Assembly (NCBI GenBank): GCA_013180625.2
Contig: SNVD02013746.1
Coordinates: 744,001 to 808,000, forward strand
DNA length: 64,000 nucleotides
DNA from: Boswellia sacra
Lineage: Eukaryota > Streptophyta > Magnoliopsida > Sapindales > Burseraceae
Direction: 5' to 3'
Position 1 is the first letter of the stretch. Each line of letters opens with the position of its first letter. This document shows positions 8,086-64,000 of this stretch, one piece after another. The notes under the pieces are model-generated. The model saw nothing but the letters and a program-made list of their open reading frames with translations, did no database searches and was not told the DNA's origin. The translations under genes and the position numbers were made by a program.

Positions 8086-9792
8086 ATGAAGAGAGAACAC
8101 AATCAACTGGAACCCTCTTCCACAACCGGCGGCGGTAGCGGGAGCGGGTCTTATTCAGGAAAAGGTAAGATGTGGGAAGAAGAGGCGGCAGATGGTGGGA
8201 TGGACGAGCTCTTAGCTGTTTTGGGTTACAACGTGAGATCTTCGGACATGGCGGAAGTGGCTCAGAAACTTGAACAGCTTGAAGAAGCTATGTGTAGTGT
8301 TCAAATGGATGGTCTCTCTCAGCTTGCTTCTGAGACTGTCCATTACGATCCATCTAATTTATCTACTTGGCTTGAAAGCATGCTTTCTGAGTTCAATCCT
8401 TCCCCTGCTTTGGATCCCCTCCCTGCCGAATCCTCTACAATCACCTCCATCGATTTCCCCAATCACCAAAGAGTCGTGGAGGAATCCTGTTCGTCCGACT
8501 ACGATCTCAAAGCAATTCCCGGTAAAGCTCTGTATAACAACAACAACAACAATAACGCTGCTTCTTCATCAATTTCCTCAACCAGAGACCACAAACGCCT
8601 GAAAACCTCGTCTCCCGAGTTGTACCCACCCGAGTCAACTCGTTCTGTAATCCTCGCCGATTCTCAAGAGAACGGAATTCGACTCGTCCACACCCTCATG
8701 GCATGCGCGGAAGCTGTTCAACAGAACAACCTCACCTTGGCCGAAGTTTTCGTCAAACAAGTTCGCTTCCTCGCCGTCTCTCAAGCCGGCGCCATGGGGA
8801 AGGTCGCCAAGTGCTTCGCCGACGCACTTGCGGGCCGAATCTACGGCCTCTACCCGCAACCTCCAATCGATCATTCCTCCACGGATCTTCTCCAAATGCA
8901 CTTCTACGAGACGTGCCCGTATTTGAAATTCGCTCATTTCACTGCAAATCAAGCCATTCTCGAAGCCTTCGAAGGGAAGAAAAAAGTTCACGTGATAGAC
9001 TTTTCCATGAATCAGGGCATGCAGTGGCCAGCTTTAATGCAGGCTCTGGCTCTACGGCCCGGAGGACCGCCGGCTTTCCGCATCACCGGGATTGGTCCAC
9101 CGGCGCCAGATAACGTTGACTATTTGCAAGAGGTGGGATGGAAGCTTGCCCAGTTGGCAGAAACGATTCATATTGAGTTCGAGTACAGAGGCTTCGTTGC
9201 CAACAGTTTGGCTGATCTTGACGCGGCGATGTTGGAACTCAGACCGAGTGAGGCGGATTCTGTTGCGGTTAACTCAATATTCGAGTTGCATAAACTACTG
9301 GCTCGACCGGGTGCCATCGCTAAAGTGCTTTCTGTGGTAAGGAATATTAACCCGGTTATTTTCACCGTTGTGGAGCAAGAGACGAACCATAACGGTCCGG
9401 TTTTCTTGGACCGGTTCACCGAGTCATTGCATTACTACTCAACAATGTTTGACTCGTTGGAAGGATCGGTGAGTTGTCCGGAGAAAAGCATGTCCGAGGT
9501 GTACTTAGGGAAGCAGATTTATAATGTGGTGGCTTGCGAGGGAGCGGAAAGAGTTGAGAGGCACGAGACGCTGACTCAGTGGAGATCCCGGTTCGGTTCG
9601 GCCGGTTTTGTCCCGGTTCATCTCGGATCCAGGGCGTTCAAGCAAGCGAGCATGTTGCTGGCGTATTACACCAGCGGGGACGGGTACCGGGTTGAGGAGA
9701 ATAATGGGTGTTTGATGCTGGGTTGGTACACTCGCCCACTCATCGCCACCTCAGCTTGGAGATTCGGAGGTAGACCGGCTTCAGCTCACTGA
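8086..9792 (+). CDS. GAI: DELLA protein (GRAS family gibberellin-signalling repressor)
   Basis: Single-exon gene for a 568-residue nuclear growth repressor. DELLA proteins bind transcription factors and restrain gibberellin responses. Gibberellin-loaded GID1 binds the N-terminal region and targets the protein to the SCF(SLY1/GID2) ubiquitin ligase. Visible features: DELLA at residues 40-44 followed by VLGYNV; LEQLE (LExLE motif) at 62-66; TVHYDP at 84-89 in place of the usual TVHYNP; a Ser/Thr-rich linker with a run of seven Asn near 149-155; a basic HKRLK patch near 170; the GRAS domain from about residue 196 (LHRI), the VHVID core at 301-305, then LHRII, PFYRE and a C-terminal SAW segment with [12 protein letters not shown]. 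Length and the MKRE start fit the family. The leader carries a CT microsatellite and one uORF. The frame is intact, so the gene is probably functional. The N-to-D change in TVHYNP is the only oddity. The symbol is by family resemblance; RGA is equally possible. Confidence 0.97.
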
Positions 9793-41624: not shown

Positions 41625-42431
41625 CGGTCTGGGACCTCATAGTGGCTTTTAAAATATGTTTCTTGTACGTTTTTGTATGTGTGTGTGTGTGTAGTTTCAA
41701 GCTCCAGCTCGATATAGTTCAATGTATTACAATGGATCTTGAAACCATATATATGACATGTGCTCTCGTCTGCCAGTTTGAGTCATAAATCTTCATTAAG
41801 TGGCTGGGATCCTCTACTTTTGTATTATTAATTACTACTAATGCAGTATCTATCAATGTATGTTTCGAACATCTTTACAAATCCATCATTTGCAAGCATG
41901 AACTCCACTTAAAAGACCTAACTAGTACCTTGTGATGCAAGTCATTCAAGCAACATCGATCCAGGTTAAGAATGGTGACTTAAGAATTAATGATTTTCCT
42001 AATGCCATTTTCCATTACATCCTTTATTTCTCCCCAGATAATATAGTATAATGTATGCATTCGTTACTATTGACTTTTCCAACTTCAAAATTGTTCATAA
42101 GTGTGTAGGGATTTCTTGAAATGATGAATGTTCCCCAGTGATTTTCATGTATAAAGAAAACAAATAGAAACTAATATTCTAAATGACTTCGTGAAAGTAT
42201 ATAGATGAATGTCTTTCCTGTCGATTGAGTTCATGGAGCTATGAATTTGTAATTTTGCCAATAACAAGGTAGCTAAGAAGTCAGTAGTAGCTCCTCATCC
42301 TTAACTTGAGGGAAACAGAGAGCTTAAAGAAAAACATTTCACATTATTCATTTCAAATGGGTCTTGAAAATTTAGGGGCAAGTTCTAGAGGGTAAAATCA
42401 TTGTGCAGAGATACCATGAAGTTTCTGGTAA
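41625..42431. other. CAR 3' flank up to element A
   Basis: The first 200 bases probably hold the CAR 3' UTR, with a short GT repeat near 41677. The rest is non-coding up to the left LTR of element A. No gene seen. Confidence 0.4.
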
Positions 42432-42624
42432 TAAACCTTGATTATAGGCTCATGTTTAGCACATAATCTTTGCATTTGTACTCTGTAAATAACTATACTT
42501 TGTTTTTGTTTATTTGATTTTATTGTCCTCAATTATAGGACTTGGCTTTAGCTTGTAACTTGTATATAATCACCTGGCAATAGAGAGTGAAATATAATTC
42601 AACATCAATCTTTGACTATTCTTT
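42432..42624 (+). repeat. Element A 5' LTR (edges approximate)
   Basis: Shares a long similar stretch with 56813-56998: ...CTTGATTATAGGCTCATG, then ...CCTCAATTATAGGA, ...GCTTGTAACTTG and ...CATCAATCTTTGA. It is followed by the primer-binding site at 42626. Confidence 0.7.
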
Positions 42625-54801: not shown

Positions 54802-56812
54802 TATCTCACATTGGTTCCACTTCACTTTCTTCACTTACAGCCACTTTTAAACTTGATATTGTTTTGTGTGCTCCTCTAATCAAGAAAAATTTGTTGTCTA
54901 TATCTCAGATTTGTAAACAAAATAATACTTTAATTGAGTTCTTTCCCAACTCGTTTCTTGTGAAGGATTTGAGCATGGGGGCATCCTTTTTGCGCGGCCA
55001 AGGTAATGGAAATATTTATGCGTGGCCATCAACAAATTTCATGTCTTCTCCAGTTGCTTTAGTTGCCAATGCAGTTTCCTTTGAGTCATGGCATCGTTGT
55101 CTCGATCATCCTTCTAGTATTTATTCAAAAAAAGTTAGTCATTAGTCAACATCTCCCTGTTTCATCAGTGTTTCTATGAATCATTGTGACTCATGCCTTT
55201 GTAATAAGAGTCATAAACTTTCTTTTGGAATATCTTCAATTTCATGCAGTCGCCCTCTTAAAGTTAATTTACACTGATGTTTGAGAACCTATACAGTTCG
55301 ATTCCATTTTTTTATAATTTTAGTTATTTTGTTATTTTTTGTGGATTATTTTTCCAAATACACATGGTTTTATCTGCTTCAATAAAAATCCGAGGTTCCA
55401 ACAATTTTTGAACGCTACAAGAAAATTGTTGAAAACTACTTTGTTACAATCATAAAAACTATTTATTCGGATGACGGTGGTGAATATCGAAGTTTGGGAC
55501 ATCTTCTCTCTAAATTTGGTATTCAACACCTAACCTCCCCACCATATACTCATGATCGTGTTGTCACTGCCAAAAGAAAACATCACCATATCTGTGAAAT
55601 CGATCTCACTTTGCTTCATCAAGCCTCATTGCCACTTCGTTTTTGGTCCATAGCTTTTAACACTGCTGTGTATTTAATTAACCGTATGTCAACACAAGTG
55701 TTAAACTTCTTGTCCCTATTTGAAAATTTTTTTCACACATCACCTAATTTTCTTAAATTAAGATTCGTTGGCAGTTTGTGCTATCCATGGCTTAAACCAT
55801 ATACTTCCAATAAATTAGAACCTCAGTCCAGGCCATGTGTATTCCCTGCTTAATTCTCTTCAACATAATTCATATCATTGTTTTGATCCACAACCTTGCA
55901 AAATCTTCATATCACGGCATGTGGTTTTTGTAGAATCATGTTTTCCATTTATGAGAATCTCCTTAAATGATACTTGAAGTAATTCTCATTTAGCTTCCAT
56001 GCGGTCAAGACCAACTTCTCTTCTCAACTATTTTCTCTTACAGATTCAGATTCATTTTGTTCTTTACCTTCCAATAATGAGTCCACTTGCCAATTATGTC
56101 CAGCGAACCTTCCAACTCATGATATTGTTCCCATTCAAAAGATTCCCACACATCTATCACATCCTACCAATTCTAGAATTTCTTCCCTTCCAAATCACAA
56201 ATAAATTCCTTAACAGATTTTCCTAATTCCTTCAACTCTCTAGCTAGTAGCAACTCACAAATAATGCCGTCTACTCACTTTTGGCTTCACGGATTGCTCT
56301 CATGCAAAACTTTTTACAGGTACATACTTCTTCAATTTCTTCACCTTCTCATAAGTCCACATCATCTAAATCTACCCTTCTTACTTCCTCTCCATCCCAA
56401 ATTGTTACCCGATCCAAAAATAATATATTCAAGTCAAAATTTTTTTTTGACTCACATCTACTGAAGCTGCGTTCAAAGCTGTTGCTGATGCCATTTTTGA
56501 GCTTGCCTAGGTAAAAAATCTTCTTTTAGAAGTTGTAATCCTACCAACTCTGCCACCAACAATATATTGTGATAACATAGGTGCCATGCATCTCTCTGCC
56601 CATCCTGTGTTTCATTCAAAAATAAAACATGTTGCTATTGACTTTCATTTAGTGAGAGATCAAGTTTCCAAAGGTCAACTTTGCATATCTCATGTTCATA
56701 CGGCTGACCAATTGGTGGATTCTCTTACCAAAGCTCTTCCTTATATAACATTTCAGGATCATCAATTCAAGATTGGATTCCGTGATGGATGATCAATCTT
56801 GCAGGGCCATAG

Positions 56813-56998
56813 TAAACCTTGATTATAGGCTCATGTTTAGCATCTAATCTTTGCAATCATATGCTGTAAAACAGTTGTACGTATTCTGTTTCTATTTGTT
56901 TGATTTTGTTCTCCTCAATTATAGGAATTGGCTTCAGCTTGTAACTTGTGTATAATCACGTTGAAATAGATAGTAAAATATAATTTAGCATCAATCTT
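56813..56998 (+). repeat. Element A 3' LTR, right end lost
   Basis: Matches the 5' LTR of A up to CATCAATCTTTGA and then diverges into the LTR of element D, so A's right boundary and target duplication cannot be seen. Confidence 0.65.
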
Positions 56999-58389
56999 TG
57001 AATACTAGTCGCACAAGTAATAAAGTGATAGGTAGATATCGTTCCTATGAGGATTGATTCTAATTGAATTTGTTATTCAAAAGCAACAACAGAATAAATG
57101 GGGGGGTTTTGTTGATAGATTAATTAAATAAAATATTAATGTAAATGCACAATAACACAACACAAAGTAAAATGGAGTGAAAAATCAATGAGAGACACTT
57201 GGTTAAGGGTTCTTTCTCTGCCACAAGATATAAATTTGTGAATTAACATAGAATTGTAATCCAATTACAGCATTGAAGTTATCAACCGTAGATAACAACA
57301 AGCTCTGTTATCCCAATCTTTCCTTACTTTGTTGTTAAATAAAACAAGCTCTTTATTTAATCTCTATCCATTAAACAACCTAGAACAAGCTCTCTAAGTT
57401 TAATTCAATGGAAGCATTACGATAAGAAAGACAGGTTGATCTAAGCAATAATCACACAGGTCGGATTATTTAACCTAGGTTGTATTTTCCAATTGCAATC
57501 TTTGATCACAATTTTGCTACTAATGATTGGAAATTCAAGACAATTACGGATCAAGATTTCTAATCTAGCAATAGACAACAACCAGATTATATTCAGTTGG
57601 CCATTCCAAATACAATTAGCAAGCAATCATAAGCATTAGATATGGGAAAATACAAGCAACTTCAATTAGAGAATTGGATAACAACTTCTTACACAATCAA
57701 CTCACAAAAACCATATCAAGGGCTTTGAAATCACCCTCAACCAATTCAGATTCAAGTACACATGTTCAAAAACGTGATAAATACAATACAACATATAAAT
57801 TTTCCAAAAAATGAAAGGGAAGGGAAAAATTTAGCAATTCTGATTAAATCTCTTTGAATTATAGTTCTTCCTCTTTCCAAGCTTTCTTTCTCCTTCAAGA
57901 ACTCCAAAAGATGAGAGAATTCCAGAGCTGCAGCCTCCAAGTCGTTTCCCCCTCTTCAAGTTATGAAAATAAAACCCTAAAATATGTTTATATACTCTGC
58001 TACAGTAACTTGCTACAGTGCCCCGTATTTAATAACATGCTACAGTGATATGTGGAATTACAAATATACACTTTTCATACCATTTTTATCATAACTTTTG
58101 GTACACTACATAAATTCGTGAACTGTACATTTTTCCAGAAAATAGACTTCGAGAGCTTTTCAATCGTATATAGTATGTTATCCGGTTAATTGTATATTGA
58201 TACAATCAACTCCGAGAAATTGGTTGATTAGCAGAGGTGAAAATGAAGGGTTTTACTTCATTTTTGTGCAAGTTGCTCCAAAACTCCTACAAACATCAAA
58301 ACCACACAAAAACATAAAAATACCAAAGAATATAGCAAAGAAACATGGACAAATTGATATGAAAGTAATACATAAATAGACACCTATCA
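56999..58389 (-). repeat. Element D 3' LTR
   Basis: About 1390 bases. The inner edge is firm: TGATAGGTG on the minus strand directly after the polypurine tract. The outer edge is placed at TGAATACTAG where similarity to the element A LTR stops; this is approximate. It contains no reading frame of note. Confidence 0.65.
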
Positions 58390-60356
58390 AATTCCCCCAC
58401 ACTTAGACTTTGCTAGTCCTCGAGCAACTACAACGATATGAAAACAAAACTAAATTTAAACAGAATCAAAGAAAAAATTAAAACACACATGTTTTAACTT
58501 GCAAATAGGCCTCAAAGATTGTACTTAATTATAACCTAAGGAAAACTTCAAAACAATGAACTTGATCAAGAATCTCATTACAAAGATTAGTTTCGCTCTA
58601 CTTCAATTCCTCCAGTGTGTGTGTGTAGAGCCATTCTCACCTAATAATTTATAACCCGGATGAGTTTATGCATAAAAATGAATCATATTTAATAGTGAAG
58701 ATGTGTGTATAAATGAACTCCATAGGCCTGCTTTTCAAGTCACTCTCCACTAATGTAGACATGCACAACACCAAGGATCAAGTAGGACTTTATTAAGCTT
58801 GTAACGTTTGGTTTGGGTGAAGGTATGATAAAGGATAATAATTTGGCTCAAATCACCCACAAACACATAAATCATTCAAGACTATGTAGAGCTCAACCCT
58901 ATAACACAACTTTATTTTAATTCACCAGGTTACTCCCCCAAACTTATTTAGAACACTCAATCTTTCTTTTTTTCGCAGAAAACAAAAGAAAACTACACCC
59001 CCATACTTTGTTGTTTCATTCTTTTTAAGAACACTTAAGGGTGTAGATATCTTATTCTTCTTCTTTTGTTCTCTTTTTTTTTCTTTTTTTTTTTTTTACA
59101 CTTCCCCTCCCCCACACTCAAACAACATATTGTCCTCAATGTGTAAGTACGTAGGCGATAAGTACAGATTGGCTTTTTTTTCTTTTTTCTTTTTTTTTTA
59201 CAAACACAATAGAACTCACTTGCATTGCTCATGACACATCCCAACCTCCGCTAACTTCCCAAAACCAGAACATAGCTCAAAATTTAATTGTGAATGATCT
59301 ACATGCTCATAGGTAAGGGATAAATTGTTTGGAACAAATTCATTTGAGGTTAGGAAATCTTTTAGTGAGTTAACAAAGAAAAAGGCTTACAAAGGCTCAA
59401 AAGGGGTAACTAGGGATCAATTTCAGTCAAGGTTGGCTATTAAGGCTCAAACGGTCCAAAGATGGCCTAAATCATTTCCCAATGTTGCACAGTCTAGGAT
59501 TTCGCCTCGAGTGACCATCAAACAAGTTCTAGAATTCATTGAAATCTGAAGAAACATTTAAATTACATAACTTTCTCTAAGTGAACAAATAACTCAGTGA
59601 TAATAGCTCAGTGCTCAATGTTGCGCAAGGAATCAAAAGCAAAGCGAAAACCAATAAACATTTCAAGCACACAGATCCATGCATCATTTATCATTTTCCA
59701 AGAGTTATTTTTAATTCAATCATTATCTTATCATTGACCCACAAAATGCAAGAAAAGAGGTACATGGCGTTGTTACACCTGAGTCAAGATTGTATATTTC
59801 AACAATCCTTAGGACCAGTAGCCCGCAGACTTAAGGTTTCCAGCCTATATACCTTTATTATGAAGAACAAAACAAGAAACAAGACACTTCAAACAACATG
59901 AAATAAACAAACTACAAAGTTATTAAGAAGAATGCGTTTCAAGGGTTAATGAAACCCCATATTCTACCATTCTTAGGTTTTTCCACAATTTTTTTTTTAA
60001 AATCGAAACTGATAAAGATAAAAACACATAACAACTCTAAATTACGCAAAACTAAACTCACTCATAAAATAACAAAGTTCAACAAGTCAGCAAACAAAAC
60101 ACAAGTTAGTTAGAATGGGTCTAAAAAAGTTTAGAAGTTAGCCTCCTTATTCAGCCATTATGGATTGAAGAGATCCAGAATGCGTTTCAAGAGAACTTGA
60201 ACTTTTTAAGCCACCACTCTAAAAACCGAGATTAGAAAATATTACCTGGGACGAAAGAAATAACTTGAAAAAGCTCAAAAGAAATAACATGAAAAATCTC
60301 AAATAAACACAATAAAAAGAGAGCAAACAAAAGTGAAGTAAACCAATAGATAAAGA
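58390..60356. other. Element D 3' non-coding tail
   Basis: About 2 kb between the LOG-like frame and the 3' LTR. It begins (minus-strand end) with the polypurine tract and contains long pyrimidine runs (59060-59100, 59175-59200). Open frames such as 59325-59549 have no domain. The composition is typical of the long non-coding 3' region of Athila/Tat elements. Confidence 0.55.
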
Positions 60357-61006
60357 TTACAGACTTAGCGTTAAATCCAGTTTACGCCTTTTATTGCCTT
60401 CCGCAAACCAATCTATCTGAGCTATTATTGGATCAGGCGAATAGATGAATGCTTGTAATTTGTCAATTAACTCCCTTGCAGTTGAAACTGTAACCAGGAT
60501 TTGCCTCGCCGACTGTGAGATAAAGTTTTTTTCTACTGCTTGATCAAGAAAAGACAACAAACCATCAAAAAATTATTGACATTTAACAAACCAATGGGTT
60601 TCCGATGGATGTTTAGCTGTGCCCAAGAGGTGATTTGAAATATCTCTTCTAATGTACCATAACCACTGGGCAAAGCTATAAATGCATCAGATTTAATGAC
60701 CATATGTGCAATACGCTCATGCATGTTAGAGACCTGTAACTCTTCCCCCATTGTGTTGCCTATGATATCTCGCACAGCTAATGGTTTAGGAATAATGCCG
60801 AGAACTTTACTTCCTCCCAAGGATGCAGCTGTCGACACACACCCCATTAACCCAAGACTATCCCCTCCATAAATCAAATGAATACTCCTCGCAGCTAATG
60901 TCCTACCAAGATCAAGAGCTGCTGTTGTAAACTCTCCATCTTTACCAAATTGCGATCCACAAAATACGCATATATTTTGGAATCGCCGAATTGGTGTTTT
61001 CTCCAT
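60357..61006 (-). pseudogene. LOG: Intronless LOG-like cytokinin-activating enzyme gene inside element D, one frameshift
   Basis: LONELY GUY enzymes release active cytokinin bases from cytokinin riboside 5'-monophosphates. The frame starts at an ATG at 61006 (MEKTPIRRFQNICVFCGS) and covers the whole family length, about 216 residues. Visible motifs: CVFCGS (13-18), YGGDSLGLMG (46-55; the family has YGGGS), MHER with Arg98, and PSGYGTLEE with Glu121 (the family has PGGxGTxxE). Arg98 and Glu121, the conserved catalytic pair, are kept, but two motif glycines are changed (to Asp49 and Ser114). One base is missing in an A6/T6 run at 60567-60572 (after residue 146). The C-terminal part continues in the next frame (SFLDQAVEKNFIS...) to the stop at 60357. 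Plant LOG genes normally have several introns; this copy has none, so it looks like a retrocopy carried by the retrotransposon. Probably inactive unless the frameshift is a sequencing error. Confidence 0.88.
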
Positions 61007-61212
61007 TTCTACAAGTGCTCTAACCTTGTGTAAGACAATGATGCACGTTAGGTAATATGCTTTTCAAGTGTAAGACAGGTTATAATAATGACATTTGAAA
61101 ATATGGAGAATGGATATATACACACATAAAACTCTCAAATTTGACACATGGGGACATAATTTCGGTGGGGGTTGCTCGATGCAGATTTATCGCCCTAAGA
61201 TTTGAAAAAAAT

Positions 61213-61336
61213 GAGATATGCTTTCGGCAGGGTTTGACAAAACCTACACATTTGTCTCCCACGTGAAGCATGAAAAATAGAGATATACTTTCGGTGGAGG
61301 TTTGACAAAACCTCCACACTTGTCTCCCACGTGTAC
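61213..61336. repeat. Tandem 67-bp repeat upstream of the LOG-like frame, each with a G-box
   Basis: Two similar units (from 61213 and 61280) share GAGATAT(G/A)CTTTCGG and TTTGACAAAACCT, and each ends in TTGTCTCCCACGTG. CACGTG lies at 61260-61265 and 61328-61333. A weaker third copy is visible at about 61145-61185. They lie 200-330 bases upstream of the LOG-like start codon on the minus strand. Confidence 0.7.
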
Positions 61337-61561
61337 TTATGCCATAAGGTAGTCATATGGTTTGTCAAAAAGAAAACTTGAAATTAAAACAAACAAAATC
61401 AACAAACAACAACAACACAAAAACAACATTGATAATCAGATCAAACGAAACAAGAAAAAATAAAATTCGACAACAACAACACACATTCAAATATACAAGT
61501 AGTTGTGATTGTGGCTCACATCTTCCTCTGGTTTTACGTCCAGTAACGGCTGAAACGCCTT

Positions 61562-62111
61562 CTATGAGTCGGGGATTTGCTTCCCATCCAGTTTTCTTAT
61601 AAACTGGCAAACAGGGTCGTTTTTAGTCAGATTCCCTAAACTATAACACTGCAATTCATCACGAAATTGTGTCCATAGATTAAGCAATTCACGCTGAACA
61701 AGTCCACAAGAATGTGACTCAAGAGTTAATAAAACATTATCCAGCGACTCATTACTCAGACCATTCTTAATAAATGAGAGTTTATCTTCTCTATTTCCTG
61801 GACACAAAACCTAATGAACGACAAGTCTGGTTACAATTCTATCTAGCACATTTATAACATACTTGTAACCTCTTTCGCCTCTTGGCGTAGTAGCTTTTTC
61901 CTAGACCAGGCATATATTTTACGAGATTAATGTCCGGCTCACCGGACAATCTCACATTGGCTTCGATAAGCCATCGGATATCCGCAGGCACATTTAAGAG
62001 CATCAACGCCCAAAGTCTAGTCATCCGTACTTTATAAATTTTGAACACAGCATTTTGAGGAAGTGAAGGAAAATATTTACGAAGGTTCGACAGAAAGATA
62101 TCGGCATCCAT
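61562..62111 (-). pseudogene. Unidentified frames in the captured region of element D
   Basis: Two adjacent minus-strand frames in different phases: 62111-61839 (90 codons, MDADIFLSNLRKYFPS...) and 61807-61562 (about 80 codons). The first has a basic C-terminus with a Cys pair (KRLQVCYKCAR). The second has an amphipathic stretch (LLNLWTQFRDEL). A frame change and a stop separate them. I do not recognise a family. Composition is closer to coding DNA than the flanks, and their position between integrase and the LOG-like frame suggests an element-specific extra ORF or another captured host fragment. Confidence 0.4.
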
Positions 62112-62543
62112 TGAAGAGAAGAAAAGGAGAGATATTATCGATAATGCGATTGAGTCTGTTCTTCTCCAAGATGTGCACGTTTCAAACCTTCGGGCAATGG
62201 CTTCAGCTTCCGTTTAGATGTTTCCTCAAGCTGTTGCACAAATGAGCTCAAAGCACGGAAAAATCAAATTAAACAAAAGAAACGAAAAGAAAACAAAATA
62301 AAATAAAGACACATAAAAGAAATAAAAACACAATAGCAAACAAAAGTCAAAAATAAACAAAGAAACAAATGAGACAGATTGCAAAGAGAGATAAAACCTG
62401 ATCAATTACGTTCGATAAAGCCTATGAGAGGAATCTCCTCGAGATACAAAAATTGATCATCATTACCTTCTTTTCTTCTTCTCTTTTTATTTATTTTTCA
62501 AAAACATTGGGTTGCCTCCCAGTAAGCGCTTGGCTTAACGTCC

Positions 62544-63850
62544 TCAGCCTGACGTTATCTGTCCACACCCATCAAGATAAGTTGGCTCGTAGAGAGGTAC
62601 CTCATCGATGTCCTGCATCACTGAATTATCATAGTAAGGCTTCAACCTGTGCCCATTCACCTTGAATACTTTATCCGTTTTTAAGCTCTTGATTTCCACT
62701 GCACCATGGGGAAAAACATTAATAATAACAAAAGGTCCAACCCATCGAGATCGTAATTTACCTGGAAATAACTTGAGGCGAGAATGAAATAAAAGAACTT
62801 TCTGTCCCACTTCAAAATTCTTCCTGGAGATCATTTTATCATGAAATGCCTTAGTTTTCTCCTTGTAAATTCTAGAATTCTCATAGGCATCATTTCTAAG
62901 TTCTTCCAATTCTTGCAGTTGAAGCTTCCTTTGTTCTCCAGCAGCATCCATCTCCATGTTACAAAGCTTTACTGCCCACCATGCTTTATGTTCAAGCTCC
63001 ACTGGAAGGTGGCATGGCTTACCATAGACTAACCTGTACGGAGACATACCAATAGGTGTCTTGTAAGCAGTCCGGTATGCCCAAAGTGCATCATTCAATC
63101 GTAGGCTCCAATCTTTGTGGTTCAGATTCACTGTCTTCTTGAGAATGGACTTGACTTCTCGATTTGAAACTTCAACTTGACCACTAGTTTGTGGATGATA
63201 TGCAGTAGACACCTTGTGAGTGATGTTGTACTTCTTGAGCAAGGCTTCAAATGATCGGTTGCAGAAATGTGTCCCTCTGTCACTAATCATGGCTCTTGGT
63301 GTTCCAAATCTCGCAAAAATATTAGATTTCACAAAATCTACAACAACTTTAGAATCATTAGTTCTCATAGCTTTTGCTTCCACCCATTTAGAAACATAAT
63401 CCACAGCAAGTATAATGTAAACATTACCAAAAGATGAAGGAAAAGGACCCATGAAATCAATACCCCACACATCAAAAATCTCGACAATAAGTATAGGGGT
63501 TTGTGGCATTTGATTTTTGGCACTTAAATTACCTGTCCTTTGACAATGGTCACAAGCTTTGCAGAACAGATATGCATCTTTGAATAATGATAGCCAATAG
63601 AATCCACAATCAAGAACTTTAAGGGCTGTTCTTTTTGGTCTGAAGTGACCTCCACATGCATAAGAATGACAGAAGGTTAAAATTGAATTAAATTCAGATT
63701 CAGAAATGCACCTTCTTATCACTTGGTCAGAACAATACCTCCATAAGTACGGATCATCCCATATGTAATACTTGGCAATGTTCTTAATCTTGTCTCTTTG
63801 AGCTCGAGTCAAGTCATGTGGTAGCTTCTTGGTAACTAAGTAGTTGACAA
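62544..63850 (-). pseudogene. Element D integrase (Ty3/gypsy, Athila/Tat-like), N-terminus cut
   Basis: C-terminal part of a gypsy polyprotein. The zinc-binding HHCC module is at about 63680-63540 (CHSYACGGH then CKACDHC). The catalytic core has D in GIDFMGPFP and D in ISDRGTHF, with the third acidic residue after HPQTSGQVE, the D,D-35-E layout. A GPF/Y module ([16 protein letters not shown]) follows near the end, then a stop at 62544. The frame is open through 63850, upstream of its first Met, and continues as [13 protein letters not shown]. Before that the sequence runs into a poly-G/poly-C tract, and the expected RNase H end is missing. The visible portion itself has no internal stop over more than 430 codons, the longest intact retroelement frame in the window. 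Confidence 0.88.
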
Positions 63851-63876
63851 TTGTTGACCCAGGTATGGCAACCCGA

Positions 63877-63910
63877 GGGGGGGAGGGAGGGGGGGGGGGG
63901 GGGGGGGGGG
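63877..63910. repeat. Poly-G tract
   Basis: Thirty-four bases of G interrupted only by A at 63884 and 63888, ending in 22 consecutive G. It lies exactly where the gypsy pol frame stops matching expectation. Confidence 0.9.
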
Positions 63911-64000
63911 AATTGGGTTTTTATTTATCAAAACGGATTTAGAAAACTTTTCTTGAAAGATCAAAATTAGTTCACTCTTTCTTTGAAAATAAAGGTGAAG
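63911..64000. other. Right edge, unidentified
   Basis: Ninety A/T-rich bases after the poly-G run. They do not read as RNase H or RT, so the element seems broken or misjoined here. Confidence 0.4.

Follow-up and report, generated by a model that had tools for sequence, protein, structure and literature searches.

We consider it likely that a plant Ty3/gypsy retrotransposon acquired the spliced transcript of a host LONELY GUY (LOG) gene, and that the copy found here is a decayed passenger of the element, not a working enzyme. The window, i.e., the whole stretch of 64,000 nucleotides that was analysed, contains a LOG coding sequence that runs in the direction of the element and lies between the integrase end of its pol frame and its polypurine tract (PPT) (Table 1). 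The LOG length is complete, as two abutting pieces in two reading frames.

Table 1. Features of the LOG sequence and of the surrounding retrotransposon (positions in the window)
Feature	Position	Strand	Basis or remark
gypsy pol frame, integrase end, with rve and H2C2 domains	62544..63812	-	Pfam
GGGAGGCAACCCA, just past the pol stop	62508..62520	-	exact; once in the window
Second extra frame, degenerate, containing MDADIFL...	61842..62213	-	frame reading; no Pfam match
Degenerate extra frame, possibly continued here after a change of frame	61565..61810	-	no Pfam match
68-bp tandem repeat (1.9 copies), separating the degenerate frame from LOG	61207..61333	-	repeat scan
Intron-free coding sequence of LOG (cytokinin riboside 5'-monophosphate phosphoribohydrolase) with one frameshift	60357..61006	-	PF03641, TIGR00730 and PDB matches
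157-aa ORF as now read: LOG at about 60569-61006, followed by 11 codons out of frame and a stop	60533..61006	-	ORF listing
LOG C-terminal part, other frame, stop at 60357-60359	60357..60572	-	PDB 2a33, E 3.7e-9; PF03641, E 4e-5 (below cutoff)
Six-T run, one-base frame change	60567..60572	-	direct reading of the letters
PSGYGTLEE, counterpart of the nucleotide-binding motif PGGXGTXXE, first Gly changed	60644..60670	-	alignment to references
MHERI in place of MHERK, with the catalytic Arg retained and Lys replaced	60710..60724	-	alignment; residue roles as given in PMC4979012
Polypurine tract GTGTGGGGGAATT	58390..58402	-	sequence reading; abuts the 3' LTR
3' LTR, 1364 bp, ends TGATAGGT...ACCTATCA, 8-bp terminal inverted repeat	57026..58389	-	outer end placed solely by the inverted repeat
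TAAAG, candidate 5-bp target-site duplication, partner beyond the window	57021..57025	.	adjoins the LTR

Results

The LOG assignment is supported by both profiles and structures. The 157-amino-acid ORF matched PF03641 (E 1.8e-26) and PF18306 (E 7.1e-11) in Pfam and passed TIGR00730 with 132.6 bits (cutoff, 96.35); the narrower profile NF058542 gave 88.3, below its cutoff of 300, with this truncated ORF as the query. Solved structures included 14 distinct LOG-family sequences at E <= 0.001, the best being Arabidopsis At2g37210 (LOG3, PDB 2a33; E 1.2e-48) and the second At5g11950 (1ydh; E 9.8e-43), chains that PMC4979012 names AtLOG3 and AtLOG8. The 71 codons that remain (60360-60572) have a LOG3 match of their own, starting from LOG3 residue 150. 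Because the switch between the two frames falls in a six-T run, the gene is of full length but shifted once. There are 175 runs of at least six A or T in the whole window, and the frameshift, being in such a homopolymer, may be a sequencing error. Neither piece has an internal stop, and no intron interrupts the approximately 216 codons. In peanut, the exon number of LOG genes varies from 3 to 7, most of the genes being split into 7 exons by 6 introns (PMC13257298), and against these intron-bearing genes the uninterrupted codons make a processed-RNA origin likely. The initial annotation had described one full-length, intronless LOG frame with the conserved motifs of the family. The profile and LOG3 matches agree with it on the family, the length and the absence of introns, the single frame gives way to two, and the motifs that it quoted are present with altered residues beside them (MHERI, PSGYGTLEE and a Gln in place of the prenyl-site Glu).

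These alterations concern the active-site region. Residues 10-149 of CgLOG (5its) paired with residues 9-148 of the query over equal lengths, so that the CgLOG number is the query number plus one, and the compared residues named by PMC4979012 land on the expected letters in both Arabidopsis chains. In CgLOG numbering, the catalytic Arg99 and Glu122 are retained, as are Ser19, Met96, His97, Gly116, Gly118, Thr119, Glu121 and Trp129. The element LOG departs from PGGXGTXXE by a Gly-to-Ser change, and in the prenyl-site set (Met96, His97, Lys100, Glu125 and Trp129) it has Ile for Lys and Gln for Glu, with Met, His and Trp kept. Lys100, Glu125 and the first Gly of PGG are the same in all four references (2a33, 1ydh, 5zbj and 1t35). 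According to PMC4979012, Lys100 of CgLOG belongs to the adenine and prenyl site and is listed among the AMP-binding residues, and Ala at the AMP-binding and catalytic residues of bacterial LOG, S19A excepted, nearly abolished activity. The same source reports that the LOG of M. marinum also differs at three prenyl-site positions; hence, the Lys-to-Ile and Glu-to-Gln changes are not fatal to membership of the LOG family. Ordinary LOG activity is nevertheless doubtful, even without the frameshift, because Lys100, Glu125 and the PGG Gly are substituted, and, judged from its residues, this copy probably encodes an enzyme with little or no activity.

The landmarks around the LOG sequence are those of a gypsy element, with integrase, PPT and LTR in the gypsy order and the reverse transcriptase (RT) and RNase H region beyond the end of the window (64000). 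The LOG ATG follows 1537 bp after the stop of the integrase, on the same strand, and 1967 bp separate the LOG stop from the edge of the LTR, in line with the distances of about 1.5 and 2 kb that had been proposed at the outset. For the PPT-LTR junction, GTGTGGGGGAATTTGATAGG at 58383-58402, shuffled sequences averaged 0.01 matches at up to three mismatches. The motif just past the pol stop is one that we take to be a landmark of Athila-like elements. Since the RT is outside the window, we infer the group from these features, and the element probably belongs to the Athila/Tat group of plant Ty3/gypsy. The two degenerate frames (61842-62213 and 61565-61810) gave nothing in Pfam up to E 10; the region that they cover between integrase and LOG may be an older env-like or other ORF of the element. 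Past a G tract of 34 bp (63877-63910), the pol frame soon runs into stop codons, so that this copy may be damaged or the assembly may have been joined there; the tract could be an insertion, a microsatellite or an assembly join.

Marks of an independent retrocopy were sought in the flanks. The 300 bp past the LOG stop have no A-run of at least 6 and no AATAAA, and the two 127-bp flanks have no common direct repeat of at least 9 bp. Missing poly(A) and direct repeats are weak evidence after divergence, and the comparison covered repeats of at least 9 bp. A blastn search of 54815-64000 against 1-54240 gave a sole match, 56810-57004, outside the LTR. This 195-bp piece lies just beyond the LTR, is 82% identical to 42429-42618 and may be left over from the DNA that received the gypsy insertion. 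Viral contigs, scanned once with the integrase and once with the LOG ORF, yielded four pattern matches per query and no relative, and the Rfam (gathering threshold) and tRNA scans were empty.

Elsewhere in the window, a DELLA/GRAS frame of 568 amino acids (8086-9792, forward strand; PF12041 and PF03514), of the family of gibberellin-signalling repressors, is full-length and uninterrupted. Three pairs of direct repeats, 43315-43664/48441-48790 (98.3% identity), 49425-49999/54241-54814 (93.7%) and 26340-27042/36803-37506 (93.5%), are likely the putative LTR pairs of other elements. The segment 21260-21831 is an imperfect tandem duplication whose units are 84-86% identical.

The element LOG has diverged substantially from the references. 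Over 137 residues it is identical to LOG3 at 77 (56%), to LOG8 at 70, to 5zbj at 65 and to 1t35 (YvdD) at 56, with 99 identities between LOG3 and LOG8. It is nearer to the two plant proteins than to 5zbj and 1t35, which we take to be bacterial. Changes avoid the core sites, since 8 of the 49 sites invariant among the four references are altered, against 25 of the other 50 positions that LOG3 and LOG8 have in common (in total, 33 of the 99 positions common to this pair). At sites where three references agree, the element LOG is altered at 10 of 51 (LOG3 at 2), 11 of 55 (LOG8 at 6) and 9 of 55 (5zbj at 6), and 1t35 departs at 16 of the 65 sites common to the other three. At core sites the element LOG varies more than LOG3 and LOG8, but no more than 1t35, the most distant reference, and thereby stays within the range of the references. 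With 5zbj as the outgroup, it shows 18 changes against 7 for LOG3, and 16 against 11 for LOG8, so that the LOG3 comparison suggests a faster change of the element sequence and the LOG8 comparison does not. Using LOG8 or LOG3 as the outgroup, which presumes the branching order, the counts were 33 to 4 and 33 to 11, and we give them no weight.

We simulated neutral decay with 1500 runs per setting, on the assumption of 0.05 or 0.12 indels per substitution. For the lower and the higher ratio, respectively, the probability of observing no stops and at most one frame break was 0.56 and 0.38 at 4% amino acid change; at about 8% it was 0.27 and 0.08, at 12% it was 0.13 and 0.02, and at about 16% it was 0.05 and 0.005. 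With no internal stop, the LOG pieces are more intact than expected after long neutral decay, and this counts against a decayed passenger. Their stop-free state may fit youth, past selection or decay alike.

Discussion

An intron-free LOG sequence in sense orientation between element landmarks, with no retrocopy marks in its tested flanks, is most simply read as a spliced transcript that the element captured. A plant Ty3/gypsy element would have gained a spliced host LOG transcript, in the sense direction, between pol and the PPT, most likely by template switching during the reverse transcription of LOG RNA that was co-packaged or had arisen by read-through. The insert would then have moved as an extra ORF under the LTR, and its LOG part would have diverged after capture. 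The frameshift and the changed residues of the substrate site would most likely make it a decayed passenger and not a working cytokinin-activating enzyme. The initial annotation had proposed the capture of a spliced LOG transcript and, as a possible outcome, the spread of a cytokinin-activating enzyme by the element. The absence of introns, the sense strand and the position of an extra ORF are the features from which we infer the former; the latter, as the spread of a working enzyme, is unsupported because of the frameshift and the three substitutions in the active-site region.

Alternatively, the LOG ORF could be a conserved and selected part of the element lineage, like the AlkB ORF of orchid elements, perhaps with an altered activity, in which case the frameshift would be a recent lesion or a sequencing error. 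Approximately 216 codons are free of stops despite the 56% identity to LOG3, the core sites are altered less often than the other sites shared by LOG3 and LOG8 (8 of 49 against 25 of 50), the catalytic Arg and Glu are kept, and neutral decay rarely gave such an outcome at about 16% change (0.05 or 0.005). In addition, the cases described in Citrus come from a screen that required five or more consensuses per species (PMC9289625). Yet, the site bias may stem from evolution in the host before capture, the plant baseline being LOG3 and LOG8 only, and a young capture needs no selection, given simulated probabilities of at least 0.38 at up to 4% change. Moreover, the element LOG has substitutions at three residues of the active-site region on which all four references agree. 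We therefore regard a selected ORF as rather unlikely, while taking it seriously. A more far-reaching proposal is that the captured LOG still works in an old lineage of Athila type that occurs in several plant orders, as an enzyme or nucleotide-binding protein with re-tuned properties and an effect on the cytokinin or nucleotide pools of the host, the present copy being a damaged member. It draws on the combination of a changed prenyl and adenine pocket with a retained catalytic Arg and Glu, and we think that it has only a slim chance of being correct.

Other origins would separate the LOG sequence from the history of the element. A processed pseudogene made by LINE-type retrotransposition could have landed by chance in this element copy, and an intronless sequence of complete LOG length with its own start and stop codons is what such an event might leave. 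It would have had to land on the element's strand and at the usual site of an extra ORF, in a kind of element for which LOG cargo is known elsewhere (PMC9289625), and the tested flanks have neither an A-run, nor AATAAA, nor a direct repeat of at least 9 bp. Given this absence of retrocopy marks, we judged an independent retrocopy to be less likely, and indeed very improbable. That the sequence is a host LOG locus around which retroelements inserted later has no specific support: host LOG genes contain introns, as in peanut (PMC13257298), the integrase and the PPT of one same-strand element are reached within 1.5-2 kb on either side, and no element boundary was seen in between by inspection of the letters. 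We give this origin almost no credence. The insertion of LOG may also have been a one-off event in one element copy.

The weight of this case on its own is modest, as it consists of a single broken copy of a kind already reported. A recurrence of LOG-bearing elements in unrelated plants would raise the question of whether they reflect a repeated gain of retroelements from a hormone-activating enzyme or simply a frequent capture of LOG RNA. The combination of a changed substrate pocket and kept catalytic residues also makes a testable prediction, namely that activity is lost or shifted.

A link between LOG and such elements was reportedly made in the abstract of Steinbauerova et al. from 2011, which is said to describe two Athila-like elements similar to LOGL4 and to propose transduction or recombination; our literature search joining LOGL4 with Athila found no paper. 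In a screen of 121 angiosperm genomes, the YgdH domain, which otherwise belongs to the LONELY GUY family, was found in gypsy consensuses of Citrus sinensis and C. clementina and, with a looser filter, of Populus trichocarpa, a result that the authors call consistent with Steinbauerova et al. (Genetica 139:1543) (PMC9289625). Hence, an element-borne LOG is already in print, and the named case of hormone-gene transduction that the initial annotation thought possible would not be the first. The present element adds one further LOG-bearing case, with its damage mapped.

As in Citrus and Populus, a plant Ty3/gypsy element carries a LOG-type domain, but, compared with the description of those elements in PMC9289625, the frame is broken here and residues of the active-site region are changed. 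With Arabidopsis LOG3 (At2g37210, 2a33) the element LOG shares the full domain length, the catalytic Arg and Glu and most of the nucleotide motif; it differs in being intronless and frameshifted, in the Lys-to-Ile, Gly-to-Ser and Glu-to-Gln changes and in an identity of 56%. Athila/Calypso-type elements likewise have an extra coding region between pol and the PPT, and their env-like genes are pseudogenes in PMC1142308, whereas the extra frame here is LOG, with a degenerate frame upstream that has no Pfam match. Orchid gypsy elements also carry a cellular enzyme as an extra ORF, but a different one, an AlkB m6A demethylase that is active in vitro (PMC9289625). Finally, maize Bs1 is also an LTR element with transduced host gene sequences; it has segments of three genes, none of them of full length (PMC13317346), whereas the element described here carries the whole length of LOG.
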